Positions 25,837 to 44,425 of a DNA stretch of 64,000 nucleotides are shown here, in pieces. The position numbers were made by a program, and so were the translations under genes. The DNA comes from Mesorhizobium shangrilense (GTDB taxonomy: Bacteria > Pseudomonadota > Alphaproteobacteria > Rhizobiales > Rhizobiaceae): contig NZ_JAQGPN010000001.1 in assembly GCF_028826155.1 (NCBI RefSeq), positions 2,981,501-3,045,500 of the forward strand. The letters run 5' to 3'. The notes below the pieces were generated by a model. The model made no database searches, was not told the origin of the DNA, and was given only the letters and a program-made list of their open reading frames with translations. Numbering within the stretch: position 1 is the stretch's first letter; every line of letters begins with the position of its first letter.

Positions 25837-26466
25837 TCAGCAGGCGGCGTTGCCGACAAGACCGCTACCCGTCGACCTATTCGACAAGATGCCTGCCAGT
25901 CCTTGCGCAGCCATGGTGATCCGATCCTTGAGAGCCTCTGCATGCGGAATGCCCTGCTCGAACTCGCCATCGCTAGCGTATACCGACGTGGCAATCGTAT
26001 TGGCGTTGAAGAAGCCCATCAGGGGTCGCAGTTGATGCTCTACGATCAGAGCATGGCGAAGCCCACCGCCCGTTGCGCCTACGATCACAGGCTTGTTTAT
26101 CAGTGCATCGGGCGCGAGAAGGTCCACGACGTGCTTGAACAACCCGGAATACGAACCCTTGTAAGTCGGCGATGCCAGCACAAGGCCGTCAGCCGTCTCC
26201 AGATCCTGGAGGATGGCCAGAGCCTGTTCCGACAATTGGTCCCGGCTGAAGGCCGTGCCAAGGCTCTCTCCGAAGTCGAGCACGTCATAGTACTGGGTTT
26301 CGACCGGTATGATCTGACCGACCGAGGCGAGAAGCGAACCGACAAGCGCCTGCGTTTTGGAAGGGCGGTGCGTGTTGCCGCTGAAACCAACGATCCGCAT
26401 CGGATAAAGAGCGTTCATCGGAGTGATGCCTTTGTGCTGAAAGGGTTCGGTAACTTGGTGGCTCAT
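25837..26466 (-). CDS. NADPH-dependent FMN reductase (MsuE-like)
   Basis: A 209-residue flavodoxin-fold reductase. MRIVGFSGNTHRPSKTQALV matches the FMN-phosphate loop (SGNTxRPSKT), and LVLASPTYKGSYSGLFKHVVDLL and VGATGGGLRHALIVEHQLRP are hallmark MsuE/SsuE segments. It supplies reduced FMN to two-component monooxygenases; the LLM-class monooxygenase encoded at 34907-36025 is the obvious partner. ATG 26466 follows GGAGAG. It is the last gene of the left arm of the island. Confidence 0.9.
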   Translation of the reverse strand: MSHQVTEPFQHKGITPMNALYPMRIVGFSGNTHRPSKTQALVGSLLASVGQIIPVETQYYDVLDFGESLGTAFSRDQLSEQALAILQDLETADGLVLASPTYKGSYSGLFKHVVDLLAPDALINKPVIVGATGGGLRHALIVEHQLRPLMGFFNANTIATSVYASDGEFEQGIPHAEALKDRITMAAQGLAGILSNRSTGSGLVGNAAC

Positions 26467-26483
26467 GACATTCTCTCCAGTGC

Positions 26484-27599
26484 CTATGTCTTTGACGATG
26501 CGACGGAGTTCAGCCGCGCGATCCAGTTGTCCAGGAGTTGTCTTCCACCTGCACCCGGGTGTGCCGGCCCGCCGTGGATGGCGCCGGGAGTGCGGGAAAA
26601 GCGCGGCGCCGCCGATGGCTGGAAGAGCTTGTCCCTAGTGACATAGGTCTCGCGCGCCTTGAGATGATCGAAGCCCGCGAGTTCATCGACGTCGAGGACC
26701 GGGCTCACGCAAGCGTCGGAGCCGTCGAATATCGCGATCCACTCGTCACGCGTTCGCGTCCGAAACGTTTCGACGAGAAGCCCAGTCACCTGCTGCCAGT
26801 CCTCAGGCGCCTGGCTGGGCACGCTCTCGAGGCCGAGCTTGCCTGCGAAAGTCGACCAGAACTGCGGTTCGATGGCGCCGAGAGCGATCCACCTTCCGTC
26901 CGCGCAGACGTAGCTTCGATAGTACGGAGCGCTGCCGTCGAGAAAGTACTGGCCGCGCCGCGTCCCGGTGCCGGTCCGCGCGCCCTGATGATGCGACAGG
27001 AGCATCGCGAGCATGCTCGCGGTTCCATCCACCATCGCTACGTCGATGACCTGCCCCATACCAGAGCGCTGCCGCTCGAGCAGCGCGCTGAGGATGCCGA
27101 ATGCCGCATAGAGGGCGCCACCGCCGAAGTCGCCGACGAGATTGATAGGCGCGACAGGCGGGGCTCCGTCCGGCCCGAACGCGCCGAGGGCGCCGGCGAC
27201 GGCGATGTAGTTGATATCGTGGCCCGCAGTGTGGGCAAGCGGGCCGCCTTGTCCCCATCCGGTCACGCGCGTGTAGACAAGATGCGGCGCTTTGACGAGG
27301 ACGGTGTCGGGGCCGAGGCCCAGTCGTTCCATCGCGCCGGGGCGAAGTCCTTCCATCAGGACATCGGCGTGGGCAGCCGCCTCAAGAGCCTGCTCCCTGC
27401 CGGCCTGTGTCTTGAGGTCGAGGATCATGGACGACTTGCCTCGCGCCAGGATGTCCGACGGTCTTTCCGGCGTGCCCGGCCGGTCGATGCGCAACACTTC
27501 AGCGCCGAGGTCCGCAAGCAGCATGCCGCAGAATGGCACCGGCCCGAGGGCTGCGAACTCGACGACACGGATTCCCGCCAGAGGGCCCTGCGTATTCAT
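26484..27599 (-). CDS. CaiB/BaiF CoA transferase family protein, alpha-methylacyl-CoA racemase-like
   Basis: A 371-residue family III CoA-transferase-fold protein read from ATG 27599. Signature parts: GIRVVEFAALGPVPFCGMLL, LADLGAEVLRIDRPG, YTRVTGWGQGGPLAHTAGHD and GHDINYIAVAGALGAFG. The GHDINY motif is the one expected in alpha-methylacyl-CoA racemase rather than in formyl- or carnitine CoA transferases. Racemisation of a 2-methylacyl-CoA allows stereospecific acyl-CoA dehydrogenase to act. Its start overlaps the acyl-CoA dehydrogenase gene by 4 bases, supporting joint function. Confidence 0.88.
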   Translation of the reverse strand: MNTQGPLAGIRVVEFAALGPVPFCGMLLADLGAEVLRIDRPGTPERPSDILARGKSSMILDLKTQAGREQALEAAAHADVLMEGLRPGAMERLGLGPDTVLVKAPHLVYTRVTGWGQGGPLAHTAGHDINYIAVAGALGAFGPDGAPPVAPINLVGDFGGGALYAAFGILSALLERQRSGMGQVIDVAMVDGTASMLAMLLSHHQGARTGTGTRRGQYFLDGSAPYYRSYVCADGRWIALGAIEPQFWSTFAGKLGLESVPSQAPEDWQQVTGLLVETFRTRTRDEWIAIFDGSDACVSPVLDVDELAGFDHLKARETYVTRDKLFQPSAAPRFSRTPGAIHGGPAHPGAGGRQLLDNWIARLNSVASSKT

Positions 27600-28765
27600 T
27601 GCGCGACCATCCCCGCATGTTCGCGCAGCATGGCGCGCGCGATGACCAGTTGCTGGATCTGGGTGGTGCCCTCGTAGATGCGCATCACCCGCACGTCCCG
27701 GTAGAATCTCTCGATACCAGAATCGCGCAAGTAGCCCGCGCCGCCAAAAATCTGCACGGCCCGGTCGGCGACGCGGCCGACCATTTCCGAGGCGTACATC
27801 TTGCAGCAGGAGGCCTGTTTGGCGACCGTCTCGCTGTTGTCGTAGCGGCGCGCCGTGTCTGCCACCATGCATTCCGTGGCGTAGAGCTCGGCCTGGCTGT
27901 CAGCCAGCATCGCCTGAACCAGCTGGAACTGCGAGATCTTCTGCCCGAACTGTTCCCGCGTCTCGGCATAGGTAAGGGCTTCATGGAGGATTCTCCGCGC
28001 CTGTCCCACACACGCCGCCGCGACCGCGATCCTGCCGCGATCCAGGGCCTTCATGGCGGTCGAGAAGCCTCGTCCGGGGATGCCGCCGATGATGTTTTGG
28101 GCTGGAACAAAGACATCGTCGAAGTAGACGTCCGCGGTCGCCGCGCCGCTTTGCCCCATCTTCTTGTCACGCGGGCCGACTGTGACGCCCGGGGTTCCCG
28201 CCGGTACCAGGAAGGCCGACACATGCGCGTTGCGGGGCAGGGGAGACGCGTTGGTGCGGGCCATGACGATGAACAGCCCTGCCAGCGGCGCATTGCTGAT
28301 GAACCGCTTGCTGCCGGTAAGGCGATAGCCGCCTTCGACCGCGGCAGCATTCAGCTTCAGCGAGGCGCTGTCGGAGCCGGATGACGGCTCGGTCAGACAG
28401 AAGGAGGTGATCGTCTCGCCGCTCGCGATGCGGGGCAGCCATTCACGCTTCTGCTCCTCGGTGCCGTCCTCGGCGATCGCCTTGGCGCCAATCCCGATGT
28501 TCATCGCCACCACAGATCGGAAAGCAAGGGACGCCCAAGTCAGTTCATAGACCAGCTCGATTTCCTGCGAGAGGGGCAGGCCCAGCCCCCCATACGCCTC
28601 AGGGACGGTCAGGCCGAAAAGGCCCATCTCCCGCATCTCGGCTATCACGTCGTGGCCGACACGGTCCTGTTCCGCTACCTCGGACTCCAGTGGCACCAGC
28701 CTGCCACGAACATACGATCTCAATCCTTGGAGAAGTTCCGAGTTGCCGGTCGTGTGCGTTGTCAT
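27596..28765 (-). CDS. Acyl-CoA dehydrogenase
   Basis: A 389-residue FAD-dependent acyl-CoA dehydrogenase. Motifs: FCLTEPSSGSDSASLK (FAD/substrate contact), KRFISNAPLAGLF, RGFSTAMKALDRGRIAVAA, the FGGAGYLRDSGIERFYRD helix and the catalytic Glu365 of RIYEGTTQIQ. It introduces the 2,3-double bond in acyl-CoA degradation. It is coupled by a 4-base overlap to the racemase-like gene. The chain length it prefers cannot be told. Confidence 0.92.
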   Translation of the reverse strand: MTTHTTGNSELLQGLRSYVRGRLVPLESEVAEQDRVGHDVIAEMREMGLFGLTVPEAYGGLGLPLSQEIELVYELTWASLAFRSVVAMNIGIGAKAIAEDGTEEQKREWLPRIASGETITSFCLTEPSSGSDSASLKLNAAAVEGGYRLTGSKRFISNAPLAGLFIVMARTNASPLPRNAHVSAFLVPAGTPGVTVGPRDKKMGQSGAATADVYFDDVFVPAQNIIGGIPGRGFSTAMKALDRGRIAVAAACVGQARRILHEALTYAETREQFGQKISQFQLVQAMLADSQAELYATECMVADTARRYDNSETVAKQASCCKMYASEMVGRVADRAVQIFGGAGYLRDSGIERFYRDVRVMRIYEGTTQIQQLVIARAMLREHAGMVAQ

Positions 28766-28773
28766 GGGAGGTC

Positions 28774-30294
28774 CTAGATTCTATTGGTATAACCGGCCCA
28801 ATAGGGCTCGCGCAGGACGCGCTTGCGGATCTTGCCGCTGTCATCGCGGGGCAGGGAGCCACGGATTTCAACAATCTTCGGCTGCTTGAAGCGCGGCAGG
28901 TGTTTCGCCAAGTGGGCTCGCAGGTCGCTTTCCTGAAGGTCTGAGCCCGGGTGTGCTTCCGCCAGCAAGGCTAGCGCCTCGCCAAACTCGGCATCAGGAA
29001 CCCCGAATACGGCGCAATCGGCGATGCCGCTGTAGCCCATGGCTGCGTTCTCGATCTCCACAGGATAGATGTTGACGCCGCCCGAGATCACCATGTCACG
29101 CTTGCGATCGCACAGGAACAGGTAGCCATCGGCGTCAAAATAGCCGACGTCGCCAGTCGCGATGAGGCCCTGCCGGTCGAGAACCGCGCGTGCTGCGGCA
29201 TCGTTGTTGTAGGTGAAATCGGGGTAGTTTGCGTTGGCGCCATAGACCTCGCCCGCGACGCCCGCCGGCACGGCGTTGCCTTCGTCGTCGAAAATCGCCA
29301 GCGTGACCCCGTCAATCGCGCGGCCGACGGTACCGGGACGCTCCATCCATTCGGGCGCGGTGACGAATGTCAGCGGGCCATGCTCGGTCGACCCGTAATA
29401 TTCGATCAGCTTGGGACCGAGCCACGCGATCATCGCCCTCTTCACGCTGACCGGACAGGGACTGCCGGCGTGCAGAACGCTTTCAAGCGAAGACAGATCA
29501 TACTGCGCGCGATGCTGCTGCGGCAGCGCGAGGAGCCGCGTGAAGATGGTCGAGACCGCGTAGAGATCAGTAATCCTGTGCTTCTCGATGAGTGCGAGGA
29601 ATTCGTGGGGGTCGAAACGTGCTGGTAGAACCAGCAATTCCGCTTCGCGGACCGCACGCGTCGCATACATGTTCGGCGCCGTGTGATACATCGGCGCCGT
29701 CAGGAGTACACGGGATGCCTTGCCGATCCGGGTGATGGCATGCCGCATCCGCGCAATGGCGGGGACCTGATCCGGATTCGGGACCGCGCGCCGGACGCCC
29801 TTCGGCAGGCCCGAGGTGCCGGAGGTGTAGAACAGGCTTTCAGCGGCCACGGCGGGGACGGTCTCAATGGGTACCTGCGCCACGACGAGGGCGCGCCAGT
29901 CGATCGTACCGGCAGGAGCGGTCCAGTCGGGGTCGCGCCCGCCCGAACCAGTGTCGCTTTGGCGGTCGACAACAAAGATGGGAATGCCGGGAAGCCGTTC
30001 CCGCACCTCGTGGGTCAGCAGGTCGTCATGCGCGATGAGCGCCTTGACCCCGGCGTCACGCAGGACATGTGCGATCTCGGCATGCGCAGCATGCCAGTTG
30101 ATAGGCAACACGTAGCAGCCGAGATGCTGCAAAGCTGCGCTTGCCTCCACGAATGTCAGCCCGTTGCGCAGAAGCAGCGCGACAGCATCAGAGCGGTCAA
30201 TCCCGTATGAACGTAGAACTGCTGCAGCCTTTCGACCTCGTTCGGGCAGTTCGCCCCCATCCAACCGGTTCTCGCCGAAGACGATTGTGCTCAT
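28774..30294 (-). CDS. Acyl-CoA synthetase (AMP-forming, ANL superfamily)
   Basis: A 506-residue adenylate-forming ligase that activates a carboxylic acid to its CoA ester, the entry to the beta-oxidation steps. Motifs: P-loop FYTSGTSGLPKGV, LIEYYGSTEHGPLTF, LIATGDVGYFDADGYLFL, DRKRDMVISGGVNIYPVEIE, and near the C-terminus DDSGKIRKRVLRE with the catalytic Lys. It lies 8 bases upstream of the acyl-CoA dehydrogenase and overlaps the MaoC gene by 4 bases. Substrate unknown. Confidence 0.92.
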   Translation of the reverse strand: MSTIVFGENRLDGGELPERGRKAAAVLRSYGIDRSDAVALLLRNGLTFVEASAALQHLGCYVLPINWHAAHAEIAHVLRDAGVKALIAHDDLLTHEVRERLPGIPIFVVDRQSDTGSGGRDPDWTAPAGTIDWRALVVAQVPIETVPAVAAESLFYTSGTSGLPKGVRRAVPNPDQVPAIARMRHAITRIGKASRVLLTAPMYHTAPNMYATRAVREAELLVLPARFDPHEFLALIEKHRITDLYAVSTIFTRLLALPQQHRAQYDLSSLESVLHAGSPCPVSVKRAMIAWLGPKLIEYYGSTEHGPLTFVTAPEWMERPGTVGRAIDGVTLAIFDDEGNAVPAGVAGEVYGANANYPDFTYNNDAAARAVLDRQGLIATGDVGYFDADGYLFLCDRKRDMVISGGVNIYPVEIENAAMGYSGIADCAVFGVPDAEFGEALALLAEAHPGSDLQESDLRAHLAKHLPRFKQPKIVEIRGSLPRDDSGKIRKRVLREPYWAGYTNRI

Positions 30295-31184
30295 ACGGAA
30301 AGATCCCTGGAGGGCGCCTGGCTGATGCTGTCCAGAACGATTGCGCTGCCTCGATCGAGGGCAAACTTGCTGCGCTCCATGACAGTCGTGGTGAAACGTC
30401 CATCGGGATAAATGTCGTGCAGCAAAGTCTCACCCGGAAAGACCAAGGCCGTCATTCGCGCGCTGAAGGAGCGCAGGCGCTGCGGTTCGTACGCGCACAG
30501 GCAGCGCAACACGGCGCGGCAGGCCATCGCCAGGCTGCACATTCCATGCAGGATCGGCCTTGCGAAGCCGGCGCGTTCGGCGCGGTCGGGGTCCGCATGG
30601 ATAGGGTTCAGGTCACCGTTCAAACGATAGAGCAGGGCCTGTTGCGGAAGTGTGCGCGTCTCGACAGAACAGGCTGGCTGGCCAGGTGCTTCTACCGTGC
30701 TCTTCACAGGGGGTTCGCCGCCGAAGCCACCGTAGCCCGCCAGCATGTGCGATTGGCGAACAACAGCAACCGGGCGACCGTCGGCATCGCTGATGTCGCG
30801 CCGCGATTGCAGGAGCGCGCCCTTGCCCCGACCGAGGTCGAACAGGTCGGTCACCCGCGTGTGCCCAATGACGCGGCCGGCCGGCGCAAGTGGCTCCAGG
30901 ATCTCGATCGATTGCTCGACATGCAGGATGCGGCCGAGATCGAGGCCGGTTTCCTGGTGGCCGAGCCAAAACCCCGGATACCCGAGGATCAGCGCCATAC
31001 TGGGCGTCACGCAAAAGTCTTCCCTGGCGTGATCAACGAATTTGAGTTCCCGGCGGTCGAGCGGGTCGTCTCCAAAGCCGACGCTCAGCGCATAAAGCGC
31101 GGCATCCCGTCGACTGTATTCGTGGCTCGTCGCCGGCACCTGCCAATTGCGCAGGCGCCGCGCTTGCTCGGCGGTCATGCTCAT
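30291..31184 (-). CDS. MaoC-like double hot-dog enoyl-CoA hydratase
   Basis: A 297-residue protein with two hot-dog domains. The hydratase-2 motif is clear: YRLNGDLNPIHADPDRAERA followed by GFARPILHGMCS, giving the Asp/His active site in the C-terminal domain. The N-terminal domain (about residues 10-150) lacks such a motif and is likely structural, as in (R)-specific hydratases of eukaryotic multifunctional enzyme type 2 and related bacterial proteins. It overlaps both neighbours by 4 bases. Confidence 0.9.
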   Translation of the reverse strand: MSMTAEQARRLRNWQVPATSHEYSRRDAALYALSVGFGDDPLDRRELKFVDHAREDFCVTPSMALILGYPGFWLGHQETGLDLGRILHVEQSIEILEPLAPAGRVIGHTRVTDLFDLGRGKGALLQSRRDISDADGRPVAVVRQSHMLAGYGGFGGEPPVKSTVEAPGQPACSVETRTLPQQALLYRLNGDLNPIHADPDRAERAGFARPILHGMCSLAMACRAVLRCLCAYEPQRLRSFSARMTALVFPGETLLHDIYPDGRFTTTVMERSKFALDRGSAIVLDSISQAPSRDLSV

Positions 31185-32428
31185 CGCTGGGGCGCCTCGA
31201 GGATGGTGACGACGCAGGCCGCCTCTTCTACCCCGTGGAAGCCGCCGCCGTTTTCCGCAAGGCCGAGCTTGGGCGTCGCGACCTGACGCTCTCCGGCTTC
31301 GCCGCGCAACTGCGTCACCAGTTCGACGATCTGGATCGCGCCGGTTGCGCCGATCGGATGTCCTTTCGAAAGCAGGCCGCCTGACACGTTGATCGGGAGC
31401 CGGCCGCCAAGCGTCGTATCGCCGCTTTCGACCAGTGGTCCCCCTTCGCCATAGGCGCAGAAGCCGACATTCTCGCTGTGAATGATCTCGGCGATGGCCG
31501 ACGCGTCGTGGAGTTCGGCGACCGAAATGTCGGCGGGGCCGACACCGGCCCGTTCATAGGCGCGGTCGGCCGCGACCCTGGTCAAGTGCTTGTCATATTC
31601 CTCGATCGACCGGTCGCTGCTGCTGCTCACCCCGATGCCGCGTATCGCGACGGCGCGCCTGGAGCCAAGGCGCGCGACCGCCCCTGCGGACGCGATGACC
31701 AGCGCAGCGGAGCCGTCGCTCATCGGAGCGCACATCGCGCGCGTGATTGGCCACGCAATCAGACGGTCGGCAAGAACCTCATCCACCGTCATCGGGAAGC
31801 GGTATTGGGCGTTGGGGTTGAATTGCGAGTGGCAATGATTCTTGGCGGCGACAGCGGCGATCTGGCGCCGTGTCGTGCCGAATGTCTTCATGTGAAAGCG
31901 GGCCTGAGCGGCATAGATGTCCATGAACACCGAGCGCTCGCCGGCTGCCTCCGATGCCTCCGGAGGGAGTTCCATACCTTTACCCGCAGCAAGCAGCGCC
32001 CGCATGTGCTGGTCGGCGAGATCCCGGTCCCAGCTTCCCTTGAAGGCCTCGAACATCTGCTCGCGCTTCTCGGGATAGTTCATCTTCTCAGCGCCGACGA
32101 CGAGCGCAATGTCAGCGAGACCCGCCTTGACGGCCGCATACGCCTGCATCAGCCCCGAACTGGAGCTGGCGCAGGCGTTGTCCGTATTGAAGATGGCTAT
32201 GCCGGCGAAGCCACATGCTCGCAGGGCTGCTTGACCGCGCACCCCGTGCTGGCCCTCGAGCGCGCCTTGTCGCGTGTTGCAGAACCAGGCGGCCTGAACA
32301 TCGTCGCGCTCGATTTCGGCGTCGGCCAGGGCGGCGTCCACCGACAGCGCCGTCAGATCCTTCACCGACAGCGTCAGATGCTTGTTGAGCGGCGTCATTG
32401 CCGCGCCAATGATGTACACGTCGCTCAT
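31181..32428 (-). CDS. Thiolase family protein (SCP2/lipid-transfer type)
   Basis: A 415-residue thiolase-fold protein. The nucleophile Cys86 is in NTDNACASSSSG, and the C-terminal GHPIGATG motif is present. The second catalytic motif, usually HDCF in SCP2-type thiolases, reads ELHDASA, so its Cys is Ala. The last loop is NGGGFHGVEE. This pattern occurs in unconventional thiolases, including aldolase-like relatives of steroid side-chain degradation. No DUF35 partner is nearby. The start lies 6 bases downstream of the end of iclR, so the regulator may be the first gene of this operon. Confidence 0.88.
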   Translation of the reverse strand: MSDVYIIGAAMTPLNKHLTLSVKDLTALSVDAALADAEIERDDVQAAWFCNTRQGALEGQHGVRGQAALRACGFAGIAIFNTDNACASSSSGLMQAYAAVKAGLADIALVVGAEKMNYPEKREQMFEAFKGSWDRDLADQHMRALLAAGKGMELPPEASEAAGERSVFMDIYAAQARFHMKTFGTTRRQIAAVAAKNHCHSQFNPNAQYRFPMTVDEVLADRLIAWPITRAMCAPMSDGSAALVIASAGAVARLGSRRAVAIRGIGVSSSSDRSIEEYDKHLTRVAADRAYERAGVGPADISVAELHDASAIAEIIHSENVGFCAYGEGGPLVESGDTTLGGRLPINVSGGLLSKGHPIGATGAIQIVELVTQLRGEAGERQVATPKLGLAENGGGFHGVEEAACVVTILEAPQR

Positions 32429-32434
32429 TGGGAG

Positions 32435-33310
32435 TCAGCGATCAAAATTTGTCGTGTCGGGTGGCGCGCCGTCGCCGCCCATCGCCCGTTCGATGTCTTC
32501 CGCGATCGAACGCAGTCGAAGACCGATCTCGCCGAGGCGTTCGATCGGGACAAGATATGCCGGCCCTCCGGCGTTGAGCGCGTAGACGCGGCCGTCCGGA
32601 AGACGGATGGGAGCGGCCGCGGCATGAATTTCCGGCCGCCATTCGCCGGCACTTGAACAGTAGCCAAGCTCTTCCAGATCGCGCATCGCCTGATCCAGTC
32701 CTGCGCGCGTCGCCTGCCATTCTTCCGGCGTTTGCGTTTCCCGCACCTGACCCAGGATTTCCTCGCGCTTTTGGGGTCCGTAGGCGAAGAGAATAGCGCG
32801 CCCCATCGATGTCTGCGGCAGCGGCAGACGCGTTCCGGAATAGAGCCGCAGCCCGATCAGCGGATTGCCCTCGTATGCGTCGATGTACATGATCTGAAGC
32901 CGGTCCTGCATGCCCAGGCCGACGTTGAGCGCCATGTCATTGGCCAACTGCTCGAGATAGGGACGAGCGACGTCGCGGACGCTTGTGTTTGCGAGAGCGG
33001 TGCTGCCTACCGCGATGGCGGATGGACCGAGGCTGTAACGGCGGCTTTCCGGATCGAAGACGAGGAAGCCCGCAGCGGTTAGCGTATATGCCAGGCGCGA
33101 GACGGTCGCCTTGGGGAGCAAGACGCGCGCCGCGAGCTCAGCATTGCCCAGATACTGGTCCCCTCGACGAAAAGCCTGAAGCAACAGCAGTCCGCGCTCA
33201 AGGGCTTCGACCTTGTGAGGATCCTTTGCCGGCTCGACCTGATCCATTTCGTCGTGCCCTGATTGCGGATTCGGTTCGCCAGCCTTGGTCGCGTTCCGTC
33301 TTGGACGCAT
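32435..33310 (-). CDS. IclR family transcriptional regulator
   Basis: A 291-residue regulator. The winged-helix HTH covers about residues 33-95 (ALERGLLLLQAFRRGD, LLPKATVSRLAYTL, with YSLGPSAIAVG closing it). The IclR effector domain follows (LQIMYIDAYEGNP, TSMGRAILFAYGP, INAAAAPIRLPDG-like 'EIHAAAAPIRLPDGRV'). It diverges from the SDR gene at 33.4 kb, and the intervening DNA has a near-consensus IclR box. The effector is unknown; an aromatic or short organic acid would fit the family. It probably controls both arms. Confidence 0.94.
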   Translation of the reverse strand: MRPRRNATKAGEPNPQSGHDEMDQVEPAKDPHKVEALERGLLLLQAFRRGDQYLGNAELAARVLLPKATVSRLAYTLTAAGFLVFDPESRRYSLGPSAIAVGSTALANTSVRDVARPYLEQLANDMALNVGLGMQDRLQIMYIDAYEGNPLIGLRLYSGTRLPLPQTSMGRAILFAYGPQKREEILGQVRETQTPEEWQATRAGLDQAMRDLEELGYCSSAGEWRPEIHAAAAPIRLPDGRVYALNAGGPAYLVPIERLGEIGLRLRSIAEDIERAMGGDGAPPDTTNFDR

Positions 33311-33325
33311 CTCTCTTCCTTCAGT

Positions 33326-33361
33326 GAAATCGTGTTTCGTTTATGATGGAATTGATTTCCA
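33326..33361. promoter_or_regulatory. Tandem IclR-type operators in the divergent promoter
   Basis: TGGAATTGATTTCCA at 33347-33361 is a near-perfect match to the known E. coli IclR box TGGAAATnATTTCCA (one mismatch), extending to a 6-bp arm each side (ATGGAA/TTCCAT). A second, weaker inverted repeat with the same 5-base spacing, GAAA-TCGTG-TTTC, lies at 33326-33338. Centres are 22 bases apart, about two helical turns. TTGACA (33362-33367) follows directly and could be a -35 element for the right arm. Confidence 0.72.
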
Positions 33362-33406
33362 TTGACAACAACAATCTTTCCCGACACCATAAATGCACAT
33401 TCGGGG

Positions 33407-34870: not shown

Positions 34871-34906
34871 TCCGTCTCCATCCAGGCAGTTACCGGGAGG
34901 ACTTCC

Positions 34907-36774: not shown

Positions 36775-36834
36775 TCGGCGCGCCAGCGGGACTAACCGAT
36801 CAAGTTCTCAAAACATTCAAACGGGAGGAAACAA

Positions 36835-38043
36835 GTGAAACTAAAAGGGCTTCTTGCCGCCGTTGCGCTATCGGCGGCACTACCAACACCGGCGTCTGCC
36901 GATTTTTCCGGCAATGTCGTGAAGATCGGCGTGCTGACCGATATGTCCGGCCCATTCTCGCACCAGACCGGACCGGGTTCGGTGGCCGGCGCGGAACTGG
37001 CGATCGCCGAGATCAAGGGCAAGATCGGGGACGTGCCGGTCGAACTAGTCCTTGCCGACCACCAGAACAAGCCTGACATCGCGCTCAACCTCGCGCGCCG
37101 GTGGCTTGACGTGGACGGCGTCGATTTGATCGTCGACCTTGCCAGTTCCGCGGTCGCGCTGGCGGTGCAGGACGTCGTCAAGGAGAAGAACCGCATGGTC
37201 ATCTTTTCCGGACCAGGCACCGACCGTCTCACCAACGACGCATGTTCGCCCAACGGCATCCACTGGACTTATGACACCTACGCGACCGGTCATTCGATGG
37301 CCCAGGCAATCATCGAGTCGGGCGGCAAGAATTGGTTCTTCATCGGCAATGACAGCGCCTTTGGACGATCGATTGTCGAAGTCATGAGCGGCGCAATCGC
37401 CAAAGCGTCCGGCAAGGTCGTCGGAGAAGTGTGGCATCCGACCGGCGCGAACGACTACTCATCGTTCATCATGCAGGCACAGAGTTCGGGCGCCGACGTT
37501 CTCGTTCTGGCCAATTCCGGAACCGACTTCGTGCGCGCCGTCAAGCAGGCGCGCGAATTCGGCGTCGATGGCGACGCATTGCGCCTTGTCGGTCCCTCGA
37601 TCAGCATGGCCGACATATTGGCGCTCGGGCCGGAAGACGCAGAGGGCCTTCACTATATCGACGCTTTCTACTGGAACCTGAACGACAAGACGCGGGAACT
37701 GACGAACGCCTTCCTGGAAAAGCGCCAGGCGATCCCGGCGCAGGCTCATGCCGGCGTCTACTCAGCGGTCCGTTCCTACCTCGCCGTGGTTTCCGAACTT
37801 AAGTCCGACGAAGCCTCGGCTGTCATGGAGAAGCTTGGCTCCACGGAGATCTCGGACGGGTTCACGCCCTCGGGCAAGATCCGCGCGGACGGTCGCATGG
37901 TACACGACATGTACCTGATGCGGGCAAAGGGTCCGGATGCCGACAAGACCGCTGACTGGGATGCCGTCGAACTCGTAGCAACGGTCCCCGGTGACAAGGC
38001 GTACCGGCCACTCGCCGAAAGCCAGTGCCCGCTGGTCAAGTAG
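36835..38043 (+). CDS. ABC transporter substrate-binding protein (HAAT/LivK type)
   Basis: A 402-residue periplasmic binding protein; GTG 36835 is preceded by GGGAGG. Signal peptide about residues 1-22 (TPASA). The type-1 periplasmic fold shows VKIGVLTDMSGPFSHQTGPGS, LADHQNKPDIALNLARRW and FIGNDSAFGRSI. Many members of this family bind aromatic or short organic acids rather than amino acids, which suits the island. It has an 11-bp hairpin after it, as often seen where the binding protein is made in excess over the membrane parts. Confidence 0.9.
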   Translation: MKLKGLLAAVALSAALPTPASADFSGNVVKIGVLTDMSGPFSHQTGPGSVAGAELAIAEIKGKIGDVPVELVLADHQNKPDIALNLARRWLDVDGVDLIVDLASSAVALAVQDVVKEKNRMVIFSGPGTDRLTNDACSPNGIHWTYDTYATGHSMAQAIIESGGKNWFFIGNDSAFGRSIVEVMSGAIAKASGKVVGEVWHPTGANDYSSFIMQAQSSGADVLVLANSGTDFVRAVKQAREFGVDGDALRLVGPSISMADILALGPEDAEGLHYIDAFYWNLNDKTRELTNAFLEKRQAIPAQAHAGVYSAVRSYLAVVSELKSDEASAVMEKLGSTEISDGFTPSGKIRADGRMVHDMYLMRAKGPDADKTADWDAVELVATVPGDKAYRPLAESQCPLVK

Positions 38044-38064
38044 TCCCACCAAAAAATCCACCGG

Positions 38065-38090
38065 GGGAGGCGGGTCTCGACCCGCCTCCC
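38065..38090 (+). terminator. Perfect hairpin between binding protein and permease genes
   Basis: GGGAGGCGGGT (38065-38075), loop CTCG, ACCCGCCTCCC (38080-38090): an 11-bp perfect stem 21 bases after the binding-protein stop. No T-run follows, so partial attenuation or 3' end protection is likely, giving excess binding protein. Confidence 0.7.
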
Positions 38091-38118
38091 TGCAGGTCAC
38101 CGTCGAGAGAGACGACAA

Positions 38119-38994
38119 ATGGAATCGATTTCGGTTCAGATCTTGGCTGGCCAACTGCTGATCGGTCTGATCAACGGCTCCTTTTACGCCATTCTCAGTC
38201 TCGGACTGGCGATCATCTTCGGCCTGTTGAACGTCGTGAACTTTGCGCACGGTGCGCTGTACATGCTCGGCGGGATGTGCGCCTGGATGCTGATGACATA
38301 TGCCGGCATCGGCTACTGGTGGGCATTGATCATTGCGCCTCTGGTGGTAGGCGCATTCGGCATCGTCCTTGAACGAGCGCTTCTCGCGCGCCTGCGCGAC
38401 GTGGACCACATCTACGGATTGCTTCTGACCTTCGGCGTGGCGCTCATGCTGCAGTCGCTCTTCCAGGGCATCTATGGTTCGGCTGGCATGCCTTACGCGA
38501 TCCCCGGCGAACTCAAGGGCGGCTGGAACCTGGGCTTCATCTTCCTTCCCAAATACCGCGCCTGGATCATCGGCGTTTCCGTGGTGATCTGCTTCGGCAC
38601 CTGGTACGCGATCGAGAAGACGAGGCTGGGCTCGTACCTGCGCGCAACCACCGAGAACCCCGAACTCGTCGAGTCCTTCGGCATCAACGTCCAGGTGCTG
38701 ATCGCGCTGACGTTCGGCGTCGGCACGGGACTAGCCGCGCTCGCCGGTGTGCTGGCCGCGCCCGTCTACTCCGTCAGCCCACAGATGGGCGTGGAACTGC
38801 TGACCGTCGTCTTCGCCATCGTCGTCATCGGCGGCATGGGATCGGTGCTCGGCGCCATTCTCGGCGGCTTCTCGCTCGGCATCATCGAGGGCCTTACGAA
38901 GGTTGTCTATCCGGAAGCCTCTTCAGTCGTCGTTTTCGTCGTCATGATCCTGGTCATCATGACCCGTCCTGCCGGCCTCTTTGGAAAGCACTGA
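38119..38994 (+). CDS. Branched-chain amino acid/organic acid ABC transporter permease (LivH-type)
   Basis: A 291-residue permease with about eight hydrophobic segments. LivH features: LIGLINGSFYAILSLGLAIIFGLLNVVNFAHG at the N-terminus and the conserved DMLxxxF-like VIGGMGSVLGAILGGF loop before the last helices. It forms the translocation pore with the LivM-type protein encoded next (gap 2 bases). Substrate is set by the upstream binding protein, not by this subunit. Confidence 0.93.
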   Translation: MESISVQILAGQLLIGLINGSFYAILSLGLAIIFGLLNVVNFAHGALYMLGGMCAWMLMTYAGIGYWWALIIAPLVVGAFGIVLERALLARLRDVDHIYGLLLTFGVALMLQSLFQGIYGSAGMPYAIPGELKGGWNLGFIFLPKYRAWIIGVSVVICFGTWYAIEKTRLGSYLRATTENPELVESFGINVQVLIALTFGVGTGLAALAGVLAAPVYSVSPQMGVELLTVVFAIVVIGGMGSVLGAILGGFSLGIIEGLTKVVYPEASSVVVFVVMILVIMTRPAGLFGKH

Positions 38995-38996
38995 TC

Positions 38997-39995
38997 GTGT
39001 CGAACGCGAAAGAACTCGATGAATACGAAAGGGGCTCCGCTATGGCATCGGCGCTCCTCAACCCGAACGAGTCCAGGGGCCATTTCGTCTGGGTGTTCCT
39101 GGCCCTTGCGGTGGCGACCGCAATTCTCCCTGCATTCGTCTACCCGCTGTTCCTCATGAAGATGATGTGCTTCGCGATGTTCGCGATCGGCTTCAATCTT
39201 TTGCTGGGCTATTGCGGTCTGCTCTCGCTTGGCCATGCCGCATTCTTCGGCGCTGGCGGCTACACCGCCGCCTTCGTCGCCGCGAGTTGGGGCCTTTCTC
39301 CTGAGGCGGCAGTCCTGTTCGGCACGCTGGCCGGGTTGATACTGGGCGTCGCCTTCGGGCTTCTCGCGATCCGACGGCACGGCATCTACATGACGATGGT
39401 GACACTCGGCCTGGCGCAGATGGTCTACTTCATCGTCCTTCAATCGCCCTACAGCGGCGCAGAGGACGGAATACAGGGCGTACCACGCGGAACCCTGTTC
39501 GGCCTGTTCGACCTGCGCAGCGACATGACGCTCTATGTCGTCGTCTCGGTGGTGTTCATGCTGGTTCTTCTGGGCTCCTACCGTCTGACCTATTCTCCTT
39601 TCGGGCAGGTACTGCGGGCAGTACGCGACAGCGAAAGCCGGGCGACGTCGCTCGGATTGAACGTGCGGACCATCAAGCTCACGGTTTTTGCGATCTCGGC
39701 CACCATCTCCGGCCTCGCCGGCTCGATGAAGGCAATCATCTTCCAGATTGCGACCCTGGTGGACGTCCACCTGACCACCTCCGGCGAGGTGGTCCTGATG
39801 ACGCTGATCGGCGGCGTGGGCACGGTGCTCGGCCCTGTCGTCGGCGCCGCTGTCCTGGTGACCAGCCAAAACTACCTAGCGGGCTTCGGCCAGTGGGTCA
39901 CGTTCATCCAGGGGTTCATTTTCGTAGTCCTGGTGCTTGCCTTCAGGGAAGGCATCGTCGGTCTTCTCATTCGTCTCTGGAGGAGGCCGCTGTGA
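38997..39995 (+). CDS. Branched-chain amino acid/organic acid ABC transporter permease (LivM-type)
   Basis: A 332-residue permease beginning at GTG 38997; ATG 39042 would give a shorter protein that still keeps all membrane segments. LivM traits include FNLLLGYCGLLSLGHAAFFGAGGYTAA, LAIRRHGIYMTMVTLGLAQM and the loop VRDSESRATSLGLNV. It overlaps the ATPase gene by 4 bases (GTGA). Confidence 0.92.
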   Translation: MSNAKELDEYERGSAMASALLNPNESRGHFVWVFLALAVATAILPAFVYPLFLMKMMCFAMFAIGFNLLLGYCGLLSLGHAAFFGAGGYTAAFVAASWGLSPEAAVLFGTLAGLILGVAFGLLAIRRHGIYMTMVTLGLAQMVYFIVLQSPYSGAEDGIQGVPRGTLFGLFDLRSDMTLYVVVSVVFMLVLLGSYRLTYSPFGQVLRAVRDSESRATSLGLNVRTIKLTVFAISATISGLAGSMKAIIFQIATLVDVHLTTSGEVVLMTLIGGVGTVLGPVVGAAVLVTSQNYLAGFGQWVTFIQGFIFVVLVLAFREGIVGLLIRLWRRPL

Positions 39996-40775
39996 CCGAT
40001 CTTTCCGCCAACGGCATGCCGCGACGGAGCGCGCCGGACACCATGATTGAGACGCGCGACCTGACCATGGAGTTTGCAGGGTTCAGGGCGGTCGACGGCG
40101 TCAACCTAGCCGTCAAGCGGGGGGACATCCACGCCCTGATCGGCCCCAATGGCGCGGGCAAGACGACCTGCTTCAACATGATCACCAAATTCCTCACACC
40201 CACCCGCGGACAAGTGTTCCTTGAGGGCCGCGACGTGACGCGAACGCCGCCGGCCGAGATCGCGCGCGACGGCATCGTGCGTTCGTTCCAGATATCGGCG
40301 GTATTTCAGGATCTGACGGCGATTCAGAATGTATGCGTCGCGCTGCAGAGCAAGACGAAGCGCGTCTATTCGATGCTGCGTGCGGACACCGGACTGCAGG
40401 ACCTAATGGTCAGAGCAGGCGATCTGCTGGAGATGGTCGGCCTGTGGGAATACCGATACGAAAAGGCCCGCTTCCTGTCGTACGGCCGCAAGCGCGCGCT
40501 GGAACTGGCGACAACCCTCGCGATGGACCCCAAGGTAATGCTGCTCGATGAGCCGATGGCGGGTATGTCGCCGGAGGACGTTCGCCGGGTGACTGAGCTG
40601 ATCGTCCGGCTGCGCGCCGGCAGAACCGTCCTGATGGTTGAGCACAATCTCAATGTCGTGGCCGAGATTTCCGACCGCATAACCGTGCTTGCACGCGGAA
40701 AGGTGCTCGCAGAAGGCAGCTACCAAGACGTTTCCGGCAACACGGACGTGCAGTCCGCCTATATCGGAGCAGGAT

Positions 40776-40783
<8 letters not shown>
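39992..40783 (+). CDS. ABC transporter ATP-binding protein (LivG-type)
   Basis: A 263-residue ATPase. GTG 39992 overlaps the LivM stop and has GGAGGAGG upstream. Walker A GPNGAGKTT, Q-loop SFQISAVFQD, signature FLSYGRKRALELA and Walker B VMLLDEPMAGMSPED are seen. It is one of two ATPases of the HAAT system and overlaps the LivF-type gene by 8 bases. Confidence 0.93.
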
Positions 40784-41498
<715 letters not shown>

Positions 41499-41517
41499 CG
41501 AACGAGGAGAGACGGAC

Positions 41518-42375
41518 ATGGCCTCACTGCGCCAGATGATTGCGAACAAGGAGTTCGTCCTCGCACCGGGGGCCTACGATTGCCTGACGGCCGGCGCCGC
41601 GCAGCGAGCCGGCTTCAACGCCGTCTACATGACCGGGGCAGGGGTCTCGGCTTCCCACGGTTACCCGGACTTTGGCCTGATCACCATGACCGAGATGGTG
41701 ACGGTTGCCGGGCGCATGGCCGCCTCCGTCGATGTGCCTCTGATTGCTGACGCGGATTCCGGCTTCGGCAGCGAACTGAATACGGCCCGCGCGGTGCGCG
41801 CCTATGAGCGGGCGGGTGTGGCCGCAATCCACATTGAAGACCAGACCTTCCCGAAGAAGTGCGGGCATTTCGAGAACAAGACAATTGTTCCGGCCGAGGA
41901 CTTCGTCGCCAAGATCCGCACGGCCTGCAAGGCGCGCGAGACGCCCGACTTCATGATCATCGCGCGGACAGACGCGCGCGCCGTCGAAGGATTCAACGCG
42001 GCGATCGAGCGCGGCAAGCGCGCCGCAGATGCCGGCGCGGATATCATCTTCGTGGAGGCGCCGCAGACGCTGGAGGAGATGGCGGCGGTCCCCGAGCGCA
42101 TCGGCGCGCCCTGCCTCCTGAACGTGGTCTGGCGCGGCAAGACGCCGGAGATCGATTTCGAGACCGCGGCCGAGCTGGGCTACAGCATCGTCATCTTGCC
42201 CAGCATCCTGCTGAAGTCTGTGATGGGCATGTCGATGGAGATACTCAACGCTGCAAAGACCATCGGCCGTCATCCGGTTCCGCCGGGGGACATCGGCATC
42301 AAGGAAGGCGTCGCCATCGCCTCGGGCGCCGAATGGCGAACCATCAACGCGGCATTGGACGTCCCTCTCGCCTGA
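41518..42375 (+). CDS. Isocitrate lyase/PEP mutase family protein (carboxyvinyl or 2-methylmalate-type lyase)
   Basis: A 285-residue TIM-barrel lyase. Family features: APGAYDCLTAGAAQRAGFNA, YMTGAGVSASHGYPDFG, IADADSGFG (metal), IHIEDQTFPKKCGHFENK with the catalytic Cys, and MIIARTDARAVEG. The KKCGH motif marks lyases of the 2-methylisocitrate/2,3-dimethylmalate group rather than PEP mutase. Such enzymes split 2- or 3-hydroxy diacids into pyruvate and a second acid. The aconitase-type pair encoded next could make the hydroxy diacid. ATG 41518 has GAGGAGAG upstream. Confidence 0.9.
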   Translation: MASLRQMIANKEFVLAPGAYDCLTAGAAQRAGFNAVYMTGAGVSASHGYPDFGLITMTEMVTVAGRMAASVDVPLIADADSGFGSELNTARAVRAYERAGVAAIHIEDQTFPKKCGHFENKTIVPAEDFVAKIRTACKARETPDFMIIARTDARAVEGFNAAIERGKRAADAGADIIFVEAPQTLEEMAAVPERIGAPCLLNVVWRGKTPEIDFETAAELGYSIVILPSILLKSVMGMSMEILNAAKTIGRHPVPPGDIGIKEGVAIASGAEWRTINAALDVPLA

Positions 42376-42431
42376 CTCCAGCACCACACGAAACGGTTTT
42401 CCGGGTCGCTGCAACCCATGACGAGGTGACA

Positions 42432-43829
42432 ATGCCAACGACGCTTTTCGACAAGCTGTGGAGCAGACACGCGGTCATGGAGCATCCGCTTGCCGGGACC
42501 TTGCTGTTCATCGACCGCCACCTGCTTCACGAAGGCTCGCGCAATGCGTTCTCCCAGTTGCGCCGCCGCGGCCTGCAGGTACGCCGGCCCGACCTGAGCA
42601 CGGCCGTCGTCGACCACTATGCCCCAACCACCTCGCGCGATGTTGAGCAGATCGATGTCGCGTCACGGCGACAGGTTATCGCCGATCTCGCCAGCAACGC
42701 CGGCGCGGCGGGCGTCGAGATCCTCGATCTCGCTCATCCGTCGCAGGGCATCGTCCACGTCATCGGTCCTGAACTTGGGCTGACCCGGCCGGGCATGACC
42801 ATCGTCTGTGGCGACAGCCATACCGCGACACATGGCGCGATGGGGGCGCTCGCCTTCGGCATCGGCGCCTCGCAGGTTGCCCATGTTCTCGCGACGCAGA
42901 CGCTATGGCAGAAAAAGCCCAAACAGATGCGGATCGTCGTGCGAGGAAGCCTCAGGCCGCACGTCACCGCAAAGGATCTTATCCTGGCGATCATAGCCAG
43001 AGTGGGTGCGGCTGGTGGAACGGGCTACGCCATCGAATATGCGGGCCCGGCCGTCGAGGCGTTGAGCCTCGAGGGCAGGCTGACCTTGTGCAACATGACC
43101 ATCGAGGCCGGCGCCCGCTTTGGCCTAGTCGCCCCGGATCAGGTCACGTTCGACTATCTGCGCGAGCGCGCATTCGATGCCGACGATGCGGGATGGCAGG
43201 CGCGCCTTGACGAATGGCGGGAGCTGCGCACGGAAACCGGGGCGGCCTTCGACAGCGAAATCGAGATGGACGCGACGTCGCTGAAGCCGATGATCACCTG
43301 GGGAACGAGTCCGGAAGACGGGGTCAGTGTCGACGGCGTCGTACCCGATCCGGCGTCGATCCAAGAGGTGTCACGGCGCAACGGCAAGATGGCCGCCCTC
43401 GACTATATGGGTCTGATGCCGGGCACGGCGATCGAAGACATCCGCTTCGACCGCGTCTTCATCGGCTCCTGCACCAATGGCCGCATCGAGGACCTGCGCG
43501 CTGCGGCGCGAGCCATCGGCGGGCGCAAGGCCGTCATACCGGCCATGGTCGTTCCGGGCTCCATGGCAGTGAGGGCGCAAGCCGAACGCGAAGGACTGGA
43601 CACGATCTTTCTGGAGGCCGGGTTCGAGTGGCGTATGTCGGGATGCTCGATGTGCGCGGGCATGAACGGCGACCTGGGTCGCGCCGGCGAACGCTGCGCC
43701 TCGACGTCAAACCGCAACTTCGTCGGTCGCCAGGGCGCGGGTGTGCGCACCCATCTGATGAACCCCGCCATGGCCGCCACCATCGCCGTAACCGGCCATC
43801 CGGTCGACATTTCAGAGGCTGAACGATGA
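42432..43829 (+). CDS. leuC: 3-isopropylmalate dehydratase large subunit family (LeuC-like)
   Basis: A 465-residue aconitase-family large subunit; ATG 42432 follows GAGG by a few bases. It is close to classical LeuC: TLFDKLWSRHAV, VIGPELGLTRPGMTIVCGDSH, ALAFGIGASQVAHVLATQTL, the cluster cysteine in FIGSCTNGRIEDL, and SGCSMCAGMN. Leucine synthesis is therefore possible. However, leuC and leuD lie together at the end of a catabolic operon, right after a lyase of the dimethylmalate/methylisocitrate type. A hydratase of a substituted maleate or fumarate is the alternative I favour mildly. Confidence 0.9.
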   Translation: MPTTLFDKLWSRHAVMEHPLAGTLLFIDRHLLHEGSRNAFSQLRRRGLQVRRPDLSTAVVDHYAPTTSRDVEQIDVASRRQVIADLASNAGAAGVEILDLAHPSQGIVHVIGPELGLTRPGMTIVCGDSHTATHGAMGALAFGIGASQVAHVLATQTLWQKKPKQMRIVVRGSLRPHVTAKDLILAIIARVGAAGGTGYAIEYAGPAVEALSLEGRLTLCNMTIEAGARFGLVAPDQVTFDYLRERAFDADDAGWQARLDEWRELRTETGAAFDSEIEMDATSLKPMITWGTSPEDGVSVDGVVPDPASIQEVSRRNGKMAALDYMGLMPGTAIEDIRFDRVFIGSCTNGRIEDLRAAARAIGGRKAVIPAMVVPGSMAVRAQAEREGLDTIFLEAGFEWRMSGCSMCAGMNGDLGRAGERCASTSNRNFVGRQGAGVRTHLMNPAMAATIAVTGHPVDISEAER

Positions 43830-44425
43830 TTCCCTTCACCGCCCTCACCGCGACCGGCCTTCCGCTCGGTCTCGAGAACGTCGACACCGACCAGATCCTG
43901 CCCGCACGCTTCCTTTCGATGAAACCGGAGGACGGCTATGCCGACTTTTGCTTCCATGACCTCAGGTTTGACGCCCAAGGCGCGCCAAGGTCAGACACTC
44001 CCCTGACGTCCGGCGTGCATGCTGGCGCGGCGATCCTCGTCGCAGGCTCGAATTTCGGTTGCGGGTCCTCAAGGGAAGGCGCCGTATACGCTTTGCAGCA
44101 CCTCGGTTTCCGGGTGGTCATCGCGGAAAGCTTTGGCGACATCTTCTACCAGAACGCGCTGGTCAACGGCCTGCTGGCCATCCGAGCCGATGCCGGGATC
44201 ACTCAGACGATCCTAGAGCATCTGCGCGCCCAACCTGACGCGCCAATCCATGTCGATCTGGACAAGCAGACAGTCGATGTCGAGGGCAGCGTGACCTTCA
44301 CGTTCGACATTGACCCCTTCAAGAAACACTGTGTGCTGAACGGCACCGACGAAATCAGTTTCACTCTGGGCTTTCTGGAACAGATCCAGCGGTACGAAAT
44401 CAAGGGGGAGGGCACCCTCGGTTGA
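43826..44425 (+). CDS. leuD: 3-isopropylmalate dehydratase small subunit family (LeuD-like)
   Basis: A 199-residue swivel-domain subunit overlapping leuC by ATGA. Motifs: ENVDTDQILPARFLS, SNFGCGSSREGAVYAL, FGDIFYQNALVNGLLAI. The usual SSREHA stretch here reads SSREGA, i.e. His is replaced by Gly near the active site, a difference that might alter specificity. It closes the right arm of the island; beyond it the DNA is decayed. Confidence 0.9.
   Translation: MIPFTALTATGLPLGLENVDTDQILPARFLSMKPEDGYADFCFHDLRFDAQGAPRSDTPLTSGVHAGAAILVAGSNFGCGSSREGAVYALQHLGFRVVIAESFGDIFYQNALVNGLLAIRADAGITQTILEHLRAQPDAPIHVDLDKQTVDVEGSVTFTFDIDPFKKHCVLNGTDEISFTLGFLEQIQRYEIKGEGTLG

Follow-up and report, generated by a model that had tools for sequence, protein, structure and literature searches.

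An IclR-associated catabolic island of Mesorhizobium shangrilense that appears to join two separately evolved modules

Two arms of catabolic genes diverge from a common regulatory region in Mesorhizobium shangrilense, and the question that this locus raises is whether they serve a single pathway. The island occupies positions 25837..44425 of the window, by which we mean the whole 64,000-nt stretch of contig NZ_JAQGPN010000001.1 that was analysed (genome label G000, 5.5 Mb) and to which all coordinates refer unless another locus is named. The left arm carries a beta-oxidation gene set, and the right arm includes a luciferase-like FMN monooxygenase (LLM). Our preferred answer, to which we would give a probability of roughly 55 per cent, is that the island arose by fusion of two catabolic modules of separate evolutionary origin, a ring-opening module B and a beta-oxidation module A, brought under one IclR switch. 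Module B itself is conserved and seems not to have been described as a pathway; it probably uses oxygen to open a small ring compound and cuts the product down to ordinary metabolites. Curated family searches confirmed the inventory of both arms given by an initial annotation, all of the named genes being present where it had placed them:

25837..26466, minus strand: MsuE-like NAD(P)H-dependent FMN reductase, final gene of the left operon (PF03358; NCBIfam MsuE model TIGR03566, 208.1 bits, narrowly missing the cut-off of 212.5)
26484..27599, minus strand: alpha-methylacyl-CoA racemase (AMACR), type III CoA-transferase fold with a GHDINY motif (PF02515)
27596..28765, minus strand: acyl-CoA dehydrogenase (PF00441, PF02770, PF02771)
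28774..30294, minus strand: acyl-CoA ligase (PF00501; PRK12406, 605 bits, below the cut-off of 701)
30291..31184, minus strand: two-domain MaoC-type (MFE-2 like) enoyl-CoA hydratase (PF01575 and PF22622)
31181..32428, minus strand: thiolase of the lipid-transfer-protein (SCPx-like) type (PF22691, PF00108; best model PRK08256)
32435..33310, minus strand: IclR-family regulator, opening the left operon (PF09339, PF01614)
33347..33361, no strand: predicted IclR-type operator TGGAATTGATTTCCA in the divergent region (pattern match; a TTGACA begins at 33362)
about 33407..34174, plus strand: SDR1, FabG-like, predicted 3-hydroxyacyl-CoA dehydrogenase (family search and synteny)
about 34292..34870, plus strand: isochorismatase-fold hydrolase (ISC), nucleophilic Cys replaced by Val (PF00857)
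34907..36025, plus strand: LLM with a RutA-type oxygen pocket, T107/N136/V138 (PF00296)
36022..36774, plus strand: SDR2, conserved partner of LLM (family search, homologues in the clade modules)
36835..38043, plus strand: HAAT-family substrate-binding protein (PF13458)
38119..38994, plus strand: HAAT permease, LivH type (PF02653)
38997..39995, plus strand: HAAT permease, LivM type (PF02653)
39992..40783, plus strand: HAAT ATPase, LivG type (PF00005)
40776..41498, plus strand: HAAT ATPase, LivF type (PF00005)
about 41518..42375, plus strand: lyase of the phosphoenolpyruvate (PEP) mutase/isocitrate lyase (ICL) superfamily with KKCGH, predicted alkylmalate (dimethylmalate-type) lyase (PF13714)
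about 42426..43829, plus strand: LeuC-type hydratase large subunit (TIGR00170, 638 bits, cut-off 560)
43826..44425, plus strand: LeuD-type hydratase small subunit (TIGR00171, 173 bits, cut-off 116)

This grouping is not due to chance, because the curated matches reach E values down to 4e-204, many junctions overlap or abut and other genomes keep the order of the right arm. In the window this arm runs from SDR1 through ISC, LLM, SDR2, the binding protein, two permeases and two ATPases to the lyase, LeuC and LeuD. Overlaps of 4 bp join thiolase to MaoC, MaoC to ligase and acyl-CoA dehydrogenase to AMACR in the left operon, the last of them with the likely AMACR start at 27599, the listed 462-aa open reading frame beginning too early. 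The listed SDR1 start at 33362 is unlikely because TTGACA occupies that position, and a start at 33407 or 33428 is likelier. The IclR gene is the first gene of the left operon and not a separate central gene, since it is co-directional with the left arm and its stop lies 6 bp before the beginning of the thiolase gene.

Apart from SDR1, the right arm is a conserved module comprising ISC, LLM, SDR2, the PEP mutase/ICL-type lyase, LeuC and LeuD. A maximum-likelihood tree built from 91 LLMs places the window protein in a six-member clade (support 99/99), and LLM, SDR2, ISC, lyase, LeuC and LeuD occur together in all six members. The five other clade modules are L008 and L010 (genomes G207 and G294 of the same order), L046 (Bradyrhizobium AS23.2), L013 (Pseudorhodoferax Leaf265) and L093 (a plasmid of Variovorax sp. 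RA8). LLMs of G207 and G294 are 71-73% identical to that of the window, and the gene order is kept in both genomes as ISC, LLM, SDR2, five HAAT genes, lyase, FMN reductase, LeuC and LeuD, with a divergent IclR gene adjoining. On the RA8 plasmid the genes form a compact operon of MFS, LLM, SDR, ISC, lyase, LeuC, LeuD, RibBA and flavin reductase. SDR2 homologues of the five modules are 45-60% identical to the window protein, and HAAT binding-protein homologues reach 55-70% in L008, L010 and L046 and 53% in L015 (alphaproteobacterium 65-37). The same five modules, all with LeuCD and the lyase, support the proposal of the initial annotation that a hydratase and a lyase close a diacid branch.

The monooxygenase itself is rare. 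In samples that were each drawn from a larger group and that include the genome analysed here, it was found in 3 of 297 genomes of the order (E <= 1e-100), in 1 of 394 of the family (E <= 1e-120), and in 9 of 385 of the class and 3 of 398 of the phylum (both at E <= 1e-95). A search with an LLM profile named 543 loci, of which the best 80 were fetched; several are short contigs, so that the counts are minima. Among these 80, LLM, lyase, LeuC and LeuD were found together in at least four (L013, L015, L046 and L070, the last a gammaproteobacterial metagenome-assembled genome), and LeuC and LeuD without this lyase in at least two, both actinobacterial (L016, L045). Partial sets comprise a lyase with a 30% LeuC in L028 (Mycolicibacterium), a 34% lyase with a 32% ISC in L063 and a 28% LeuC by itself in L044. 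A single-sequence scan of genome contigs detected no relative. An LLM 90% identical to that of the window is named from a Nitratireductor sp. metagenome-assembled genome (P0001).

The left arm has a different history. Its ligase, dehydrogenase, MaoC hydratase and thiolase, completed by SDR1, would make up one full beta-oxidation cycle. The thiolase shares 65-79% identity with plasmid thiolases of Sphingomonas JE1, Variovorax SRS16, Variovorax PBL-E5, Sphingobium EP60837 and Paracoccus versutus, and stretches of 23-29 kb were fetched from four of these five plasmid records (L122, L123, L129, L143). MaoC (46-48%) and an SDR1 homologue (56-58%) adjoin the thiolase in three of the four (L123, L129, L143), and L123 also holds an AMACR (46%) and acyl-CoA dehydrogenases (29-38%); in L122 the thiolase stands without MaoC or a close SDR1. 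No match to LLM, LeuC or the lyase was found in any of the four stretches. Conversely, comparison with window proteins and inspection by eye showed no left-arm set adjoining LLM in any of the five other clade modules. L046 is the one module of the five with CoA genes in its fetched flanks: a 43% MaoC, a 32% SDR, a 34% thiolase, a distant ligase and a DUF35-like gene (by eye). In G207 and G294 a 57-58% thiolase lies far from LLM, beside other HAAT and ligase genes. The two arms are not one ancestral pathway because modules and left-arm relatives occur separately elsewhere, and the idea of one established pathway formed by both arms lacks general support.

Since its homologue adjoins thiolase and MaoC on plasmids, SDR1, at the head of the right operon, is best regarded as a gene of beta-oxidation; at the five other clade module loci no SDR1 homologue above 33% was found. 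The nearest solved structures to AMACR are Far (E 7e-104) and MCR (E 1e-97), racemases ranging from 7e-104 to 3e-96 and the next group standing at 3e-35. This closeness to MCR and Far suggests that the left-arm set acts on a 2-methyl-branched acyl-CoA. As a separate observation, the Variovorax records NZ_LR594669.1 (SRS16) and NZ_LR594673.1 (PBL-E5) each carry relatives of the thiolase (72%) and of ISC (56%), far apart from each other (about 160 kb in SRS16).

What, then, could join the arms in this genome? Between IclR and SDR1, at 33347-33361, TGGAATTGATTTCCA fits the pattern TGGAANTNATTTCCA, a form of the operator of E. coli IclR. A search that allowed up to one mismatch found this pattern at one place in the window, read on both strands as a palindrome (shuffles gave a mean of 0.03, and 1 of 100 reached two). 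The identical 15-mer TGGAATTGATTTCCA lies in the IclR-ISC gap of both L008 and L010, where IclR is likewise divergent from ISC, each time with a second site TGGAATACATTTCCA. Genome-wide, exact matches to TGGAATNNATTTCCA number one in G000, two in G207 and two in G294, all of them at the LLM-module locus; a reversed control of TGGAATNNATTTCCA had no match in the three genomes. The palindrome TGGAA-N5-TTCCA was absent from all eight other loci scanned (L013, L015, L028, L046, L070, L093, L123, L129). The helix-turn-helix stretch LPKATVSR is identical in the IclRs of the window, L008 and L010, which are otherwise 38-39% identical over the matched stretch. The shared promoter region of the divergent unit has, in this site, a palindromic candidate operator. 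We infer that the LLM module brought IclR and its operator along and that the transcription unit of this regulator has come to include the beta-oxidation genes; IclR would control both arms together from the single site. The one IclR-controlled, two-armed island proposed by the initial annotation is supported by this lone operator and by an interdependence of the arms in parts.

Each arm indeed seems to depend on a gene placed in the other. The right arm yielded no flavin reductase, and the sole one found in the island is the final gene of the left operon (25837-26466), the presumed partner of LLM. The five other clade modules all have a flavin reductase gene within or close to the LLM operon, its product belonging to either of two Pfam families. 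In L008 and L010 an FMN_red protein is encoded between lyase and LeuC; in L046 a Flavin_Reduct protein follows SDR2, and in L013 and L093 one follows the RibBA gene. The left arm, for its part, is without a 3-hydroxyacyl-CoA dehydrogenase of its own, and SDR1 stands in the right operon instead. The common operator, the exchanged parts and the joint absence of LLM (E <= 1e-120) and thiolase (E <= 1e-90) from the three other sampled genomes of the genus argue that the arms were joined here. A side observation concerns two genes close to the LLM modules of L093 (24859-25986) and L013 (16823-17938). Each encodes a flavin reductase domain fused with the C-terminal domain of IclR (24.4 and 30.1 bits against a cut-off of 24), and such a fusion suggests a ligand-sensing reductase.

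The chemistry of module B can be approached from the active sites. The nearest named solved structures to LLM are SfnG and RutA, with an LLM chain of unstated function between them. SfnG (TIGR04021) is the best curated LLM family at 209 bits, short of its cut-off of 382.95, and the RutA equivalog (TIGR03612) is likewise missed (158.7 bits, cut-off 498.3). In RutA, according to a review (PMC7662398), T105 and N134 form the distal part of the dioxygen pocket and V136 lines it, and their mutation abolishes activity, with the exception of T105S. By alignment, with the numbering matched by identity and spacing, these residues correspond to T107, N136 and V138 of the window LLM; SfnG has Ala at the Thr position. 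ISC fits the isochorismatase fold (PF00857, 145.4 bits, cut-off 27) and falls far below the RutB equivalog (TIGR03614, 78.6 bits, cut-off 377.95). It keeps the Asp and Lys of the family and has Val where biuret hydrolase has the nucleophilic Cys of its Asp-Lys-Cys triad; this Cys is absent from 10 of 11 aligned homologues, being present in L063 alone. Because the catalytic Cys is missing, amide hydrolysis by a thiol nucleophile is unlikely, and RutB-like ureido or maleamate hydrolysis by ISC was rejected on this ground. The analogy with RutA-RutB drawn by the initial annotation therefore stands for the oxygen pocket of LLM but not for the hydrolysis.

The neighbourhoods of ISC give another clue. 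Its search matched 3224 records, of which 12 were listed and four fetched (L124, L125, L127, L128); L126 came from the LeuC search. ISC lies near two CoA-transferases, MaoC and a CoA ester lyase in L125, L127 and L128, near a protein of the Asp/Glu racemase family in L124, and with lyase, LeuCD and hydantoinase A/B in L126 (Sulfitobacter SK025), a stretch with no annotated LLM. Since these neighbours are dicarboxylate enzymes, which are the expected fates of an enedioate, ISC may well deliver an enedioate. A common gene order was also observed in L128, on the Ti plasmid pTiAF3.44, and L127, on a marine Salipiger plasmid: HAAT genes, SDR, a lactonase-family protein, GntR, a Cys-less isochorismatase-fold protein, two MaoC, two CoA-transferases and a CoA ester lyase.

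The conserved end of module B is LeuCD with the lyase. The best solved match to the lyase is 3fa3, named 2,3-dimethylmalate lyase (182.5 bits, E 7e-53), with a CPEP-mutase chain nearly equal (181.9 bits, 1e-52). The best-scoring NCBIfam model is prpB (PrpB methylisocitrate lyase, TIGR02317), whose cut-off of 354.4 is missed at 258.5 bits. In an alignment of nine homologues, KKCGH is kept as in the window in L010, L046 and L015; the motif reads KQCGH in L008 and KRCGH in L070, L028, L013 and L093, and is absent from L063. The island LeuC and LeuD both satisfy the isopropylmalate isomerase models, and LeuD scores 90 against a LeuD/DmdB-model cut-off of 109 while it passes the bacterial LeuD model. 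A second LeuC, 56% identical to that of the island, is encoded at G000:C1:960320.

These elements can be arranged into a working scheme. Module B would consist of ISC, LLM, SDR2, HAAT uptake, lyase, LeuC and LeuD together with the FMN reductase of the left arm. The HAAT transporter would take up a small cyclic compound, whose ring LLM, supplied with FMNH2 by the MsuE-like reductase, would attack by RutA-like flavin-N5-peroxide chemistry; SDR2 and the Cys-less ISC would convert the opened product to a cis-enedioate (an alkyl-maleate), which LeuCD would hydrate to an alkyl-malate. Retro-aldol cleavage of this alkyl-malate by the lyase would release a carboxylic acid together with pyruvate or glyoxylate as the 2-oxo acid. 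Module A, made up of ligase, AMACR, acyl-CoA dehydrogenase, MaoC, SDR1 and thiolase, would carry out one complete beta-oxidation cycle on a 2-methyl-branched acid that comes from a side chain of the substrate or is set free by module B, and IclR at the single operator would govern both arms jointly. Gene content, conservation of module B, independent occurrence of module A, the shared operator site, the interleaving and the active-site states are evident from the sequence; we infer from them the binding, every reaction, the reaction order and the substrate.

A more specific form of this scheme, offered tentatively and on balance improbable in its details, is an aerobic route in which the RutA-type LLM, SDR2 and the Cys-less ISC open a methyl-substituted cyclic imide, lactam or hydroxybutenolide (e.g. 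a tetrapyrrole or furan-acid fragment) to a substituted maleate, relatives of isopropylmalate isomerase and dimethylmalate lyase turn this into pyruvate and propionate, and the IclR-recruited CoA arm shortens an acyl side chain of the same natural substrate. Strigolactone D-ring and other butenolides, tetrapyrrole maleimides, furan fatty acids, riboflavin fragments and pyridine or pyrazine opening were considered as candidates.

Several results weigh against our interpretation. Both full arms were seen together in this genome only, and none of the three other sampled genomes of the genus has LLM or the thiolase. A scan for consensus promoters found none in the divergent region. LLM is far from RutA in score, and T/N/V marks the larger LLM group rather than the window clade, since nearly all sampled LLMs keep it (T in 90, N in 91 and V in 91 of 91). 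ISC is without an assignable reaction. LeuCD may act on an ordinary substrate, given that it passes leucine-pathway cut-offs. Across the full tree the association with LeuCD requires five changes (mean with shuffled labels 9.6) and has therefore been gained or lost repeatedly outside the clade of the window LLM. The actinobacterial relatives L016, L018, L023 and L045 pair LLM with an aldehyde dehydrogenase (by eye), and an HMGL-like lyase accompanies actinobacterial LLM (tested with a hidden Markov model in L016 only); because some relatives use these enzymes, the endgame of the pathway is not fixed.

Among the other explanations, the left arm could be a passenger, a separate operon for beta-oxidation of branched acids inserted by chance downstream of IclR and metabolically unlinked to the LLM module. 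Its plasmid relatives without LLM, the five clade modules without an adjoining left-arm set and the remote thiolases of G207 and G294 all fit such an insertion, but the 6 bp between IclR and thiolase, the position of the only exact operator of the genome upstream of both operons, and the swap of SDR1 and flavin reductase between the arms do not, and we hold it to be possible, though somewhat unlikely. Quite doubtful is the single linear pathway suggested by the initial annotation, in which one heteroatom-containing, methyl-branched acid is taken up, oxidized by LLM, hydrolysed in a RutB-like step, activated with CoA, racemized and beta-oxidized, with a diacid side branch. The common operator, the interleaved parts and a full beta-oxidation set including AMACR would suit it; however, the RutB-like step has lost its cysteine, the conserved endgame is LeuCD with the lyase and not the CoA arm, and the heteroatom finds no support in the sequence.

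Sulfur scavenging, with LLM as a sulfone or alkanesulfonate monooxygenase served by an MsuE-type reductase, draws on SfnG as the best curated family (209 bits) and closest solved structure and on a reductase just below the MsuE cut-off. We consider it very improbable: the SfnG cut-off (383) is missed, a RutA-type Thr replaces the Ala of SfnG, family searches found no other sulfur-metabolism family among the island proteins, and the partners in all six clade members are carbon-catabolic. Least credible is a right arm without a dedicated endgame, in which LeuCD would be a surplus isomerase of the leucine pathway and the lyase would act on methylisocitrate. Although TIGR00170 and TIGR00171 are passed and prpB is the best NCBIfam model for the lyase, the genome has a second LeuC, the lyase scores 258 bits against the prpB cut-off of 354, and lyase and LeuCD accompany LLM in alpha- and betaproteobacteria.

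The fusion reading offers a testable unit: six proteins kept together in a clade, one assayable operator site, and a single genome whose beta-oxidation operon seems to have been captured by a regulator belonging to another pathway. It also draws attention to Cys-less isochorismatase-fold enzymes encoded close to enzymes of dicarboxylate processing in a number of distinct clusters, including one on plasmid pTiAF3.44. Among the titles and abstract openings listed from the open-licence PMC library, none concerned this gene set, and the one paper to name dimethylmaleate hydratase was unrelated; subscription papers lay outside the search.

Other observations were made on the surroundings and on more distant relatives. 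The left flank of the island holds a C1-oxidation gene set including Fae. Directly left of the island, 4941-25005 encodes a pyrroloquinoline quinone (PQQ)-dependent dehydrogenase of the methanol/ethanol family, pqqB, pqqE, a formylmethanofuran-tetrahydromethanopterin (H4MPT) formyltransferase and a formaldehyde-activating enzyme, with others recognized by eye. This methanol/PQQ/H4MPT set was set aside as part of the island; none was noticed among the called genes of L008 and L010, where no dedicated search was made. The right flank holds tRNA-Asn, tRNA-Cys, TolC, a PopZ-like protein (just below its cut-off) and ValS. A strong 12-pair hairpin lies at 38064-38091 between the binding-protein and first permease genes, and stable hairpins of different sequence occupy the same position in L008 and L010. 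Promoter and terminator scans stayed at shuffle level (2 against 3.4 and 14 against 12.9), and repeats in the window form short families of two or three copies; both were left unused.

Elsewhere in the genome, two adjoining LLM paralogues (G000:C1:920248-923174, L012) are 38-41% identical to the window LLM. L094 (Rhizobium etli p42d) carries a 43% LLM with flavin reductase, RibBA, binding-protein and lactonase-family genes, and 24 of the 25 plasmid matches listed are Rhizobium records with a 43% LLM. L016 (Pseudarthrobacter) and L045 (Arthrobacter) combine LLM and LeuCD with an aldehyde dehydrogenase and a CoA-transferase (by eye), as if a CoA route had replaced the ICL-type lyase. A TgnA/TgnB-type pair, known from trigonelline breakdown, was considered in L091 as an analogue and rejected, the L091 LLM having an SfnG-like Ala and a very long branch.

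How does the island compare with known systems? The Rut pathway likewise combines an LLM (RutA), an isochorismatase-fold protein (the amidohydrolase RutB) and a flavin reductase (RutF), and the RutA T/N/V residues are kept; in contrast, the RutA and RutB cut-offs are missed, the amidase Cys is replaced, and the window adds an SDR, LeuCD and a retro-aldol lyase. The two-component sulfone and sulfonate monooxygenases SfnG/MsuE provide the nearest solved structure, the nearest curated LLM family and an MsuE-like reductase, but their equivalog cut-offs are missed, the pocket has Thr in the window against Ala in SfnG, and the window operon is carbon-catabolic. EntB and PhzD are Cys-less members of the isochorismatase fold that hydrolyse vinyl ethers, and the likeness of ISC to these isochorismatases proper is limited to their common lack of Cys. 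The Sulfitobacter SK025 cluster shares with the window a likewise Cys-less ISC, the lyase and LeuCD, whereas it has hydantoinase A/B (hydantoinase/oxoprolinase), an FAD oxidoreductase and TRAP uptake, with no LLM annotated in the stretch. For module A, the thiolase-MaoC-SDR clusters on plasmids of Variovorax SRS16, Sphingobium EP60837 and Paracoccus versutus have thiolase, MaoC and SDR1 homologues of 46-72% identity, and in Variovorax a 46% AMACR; unlike the window, the fetched stretches have no LLM or LeuCD match, and no operator was found in L123 and L129. The endgame of module B resembles the dimethylmaleate hydratase (DmdAB) and 2,3-dimethylmalate lyase of anaerobic nicotinate fermentation, in which a LeuCD-type hydratase is followed by a PEP mutase/ICL-type lyase, whereas the window operon adds to this pair an oxygen-using, FMN-dependent LLM.

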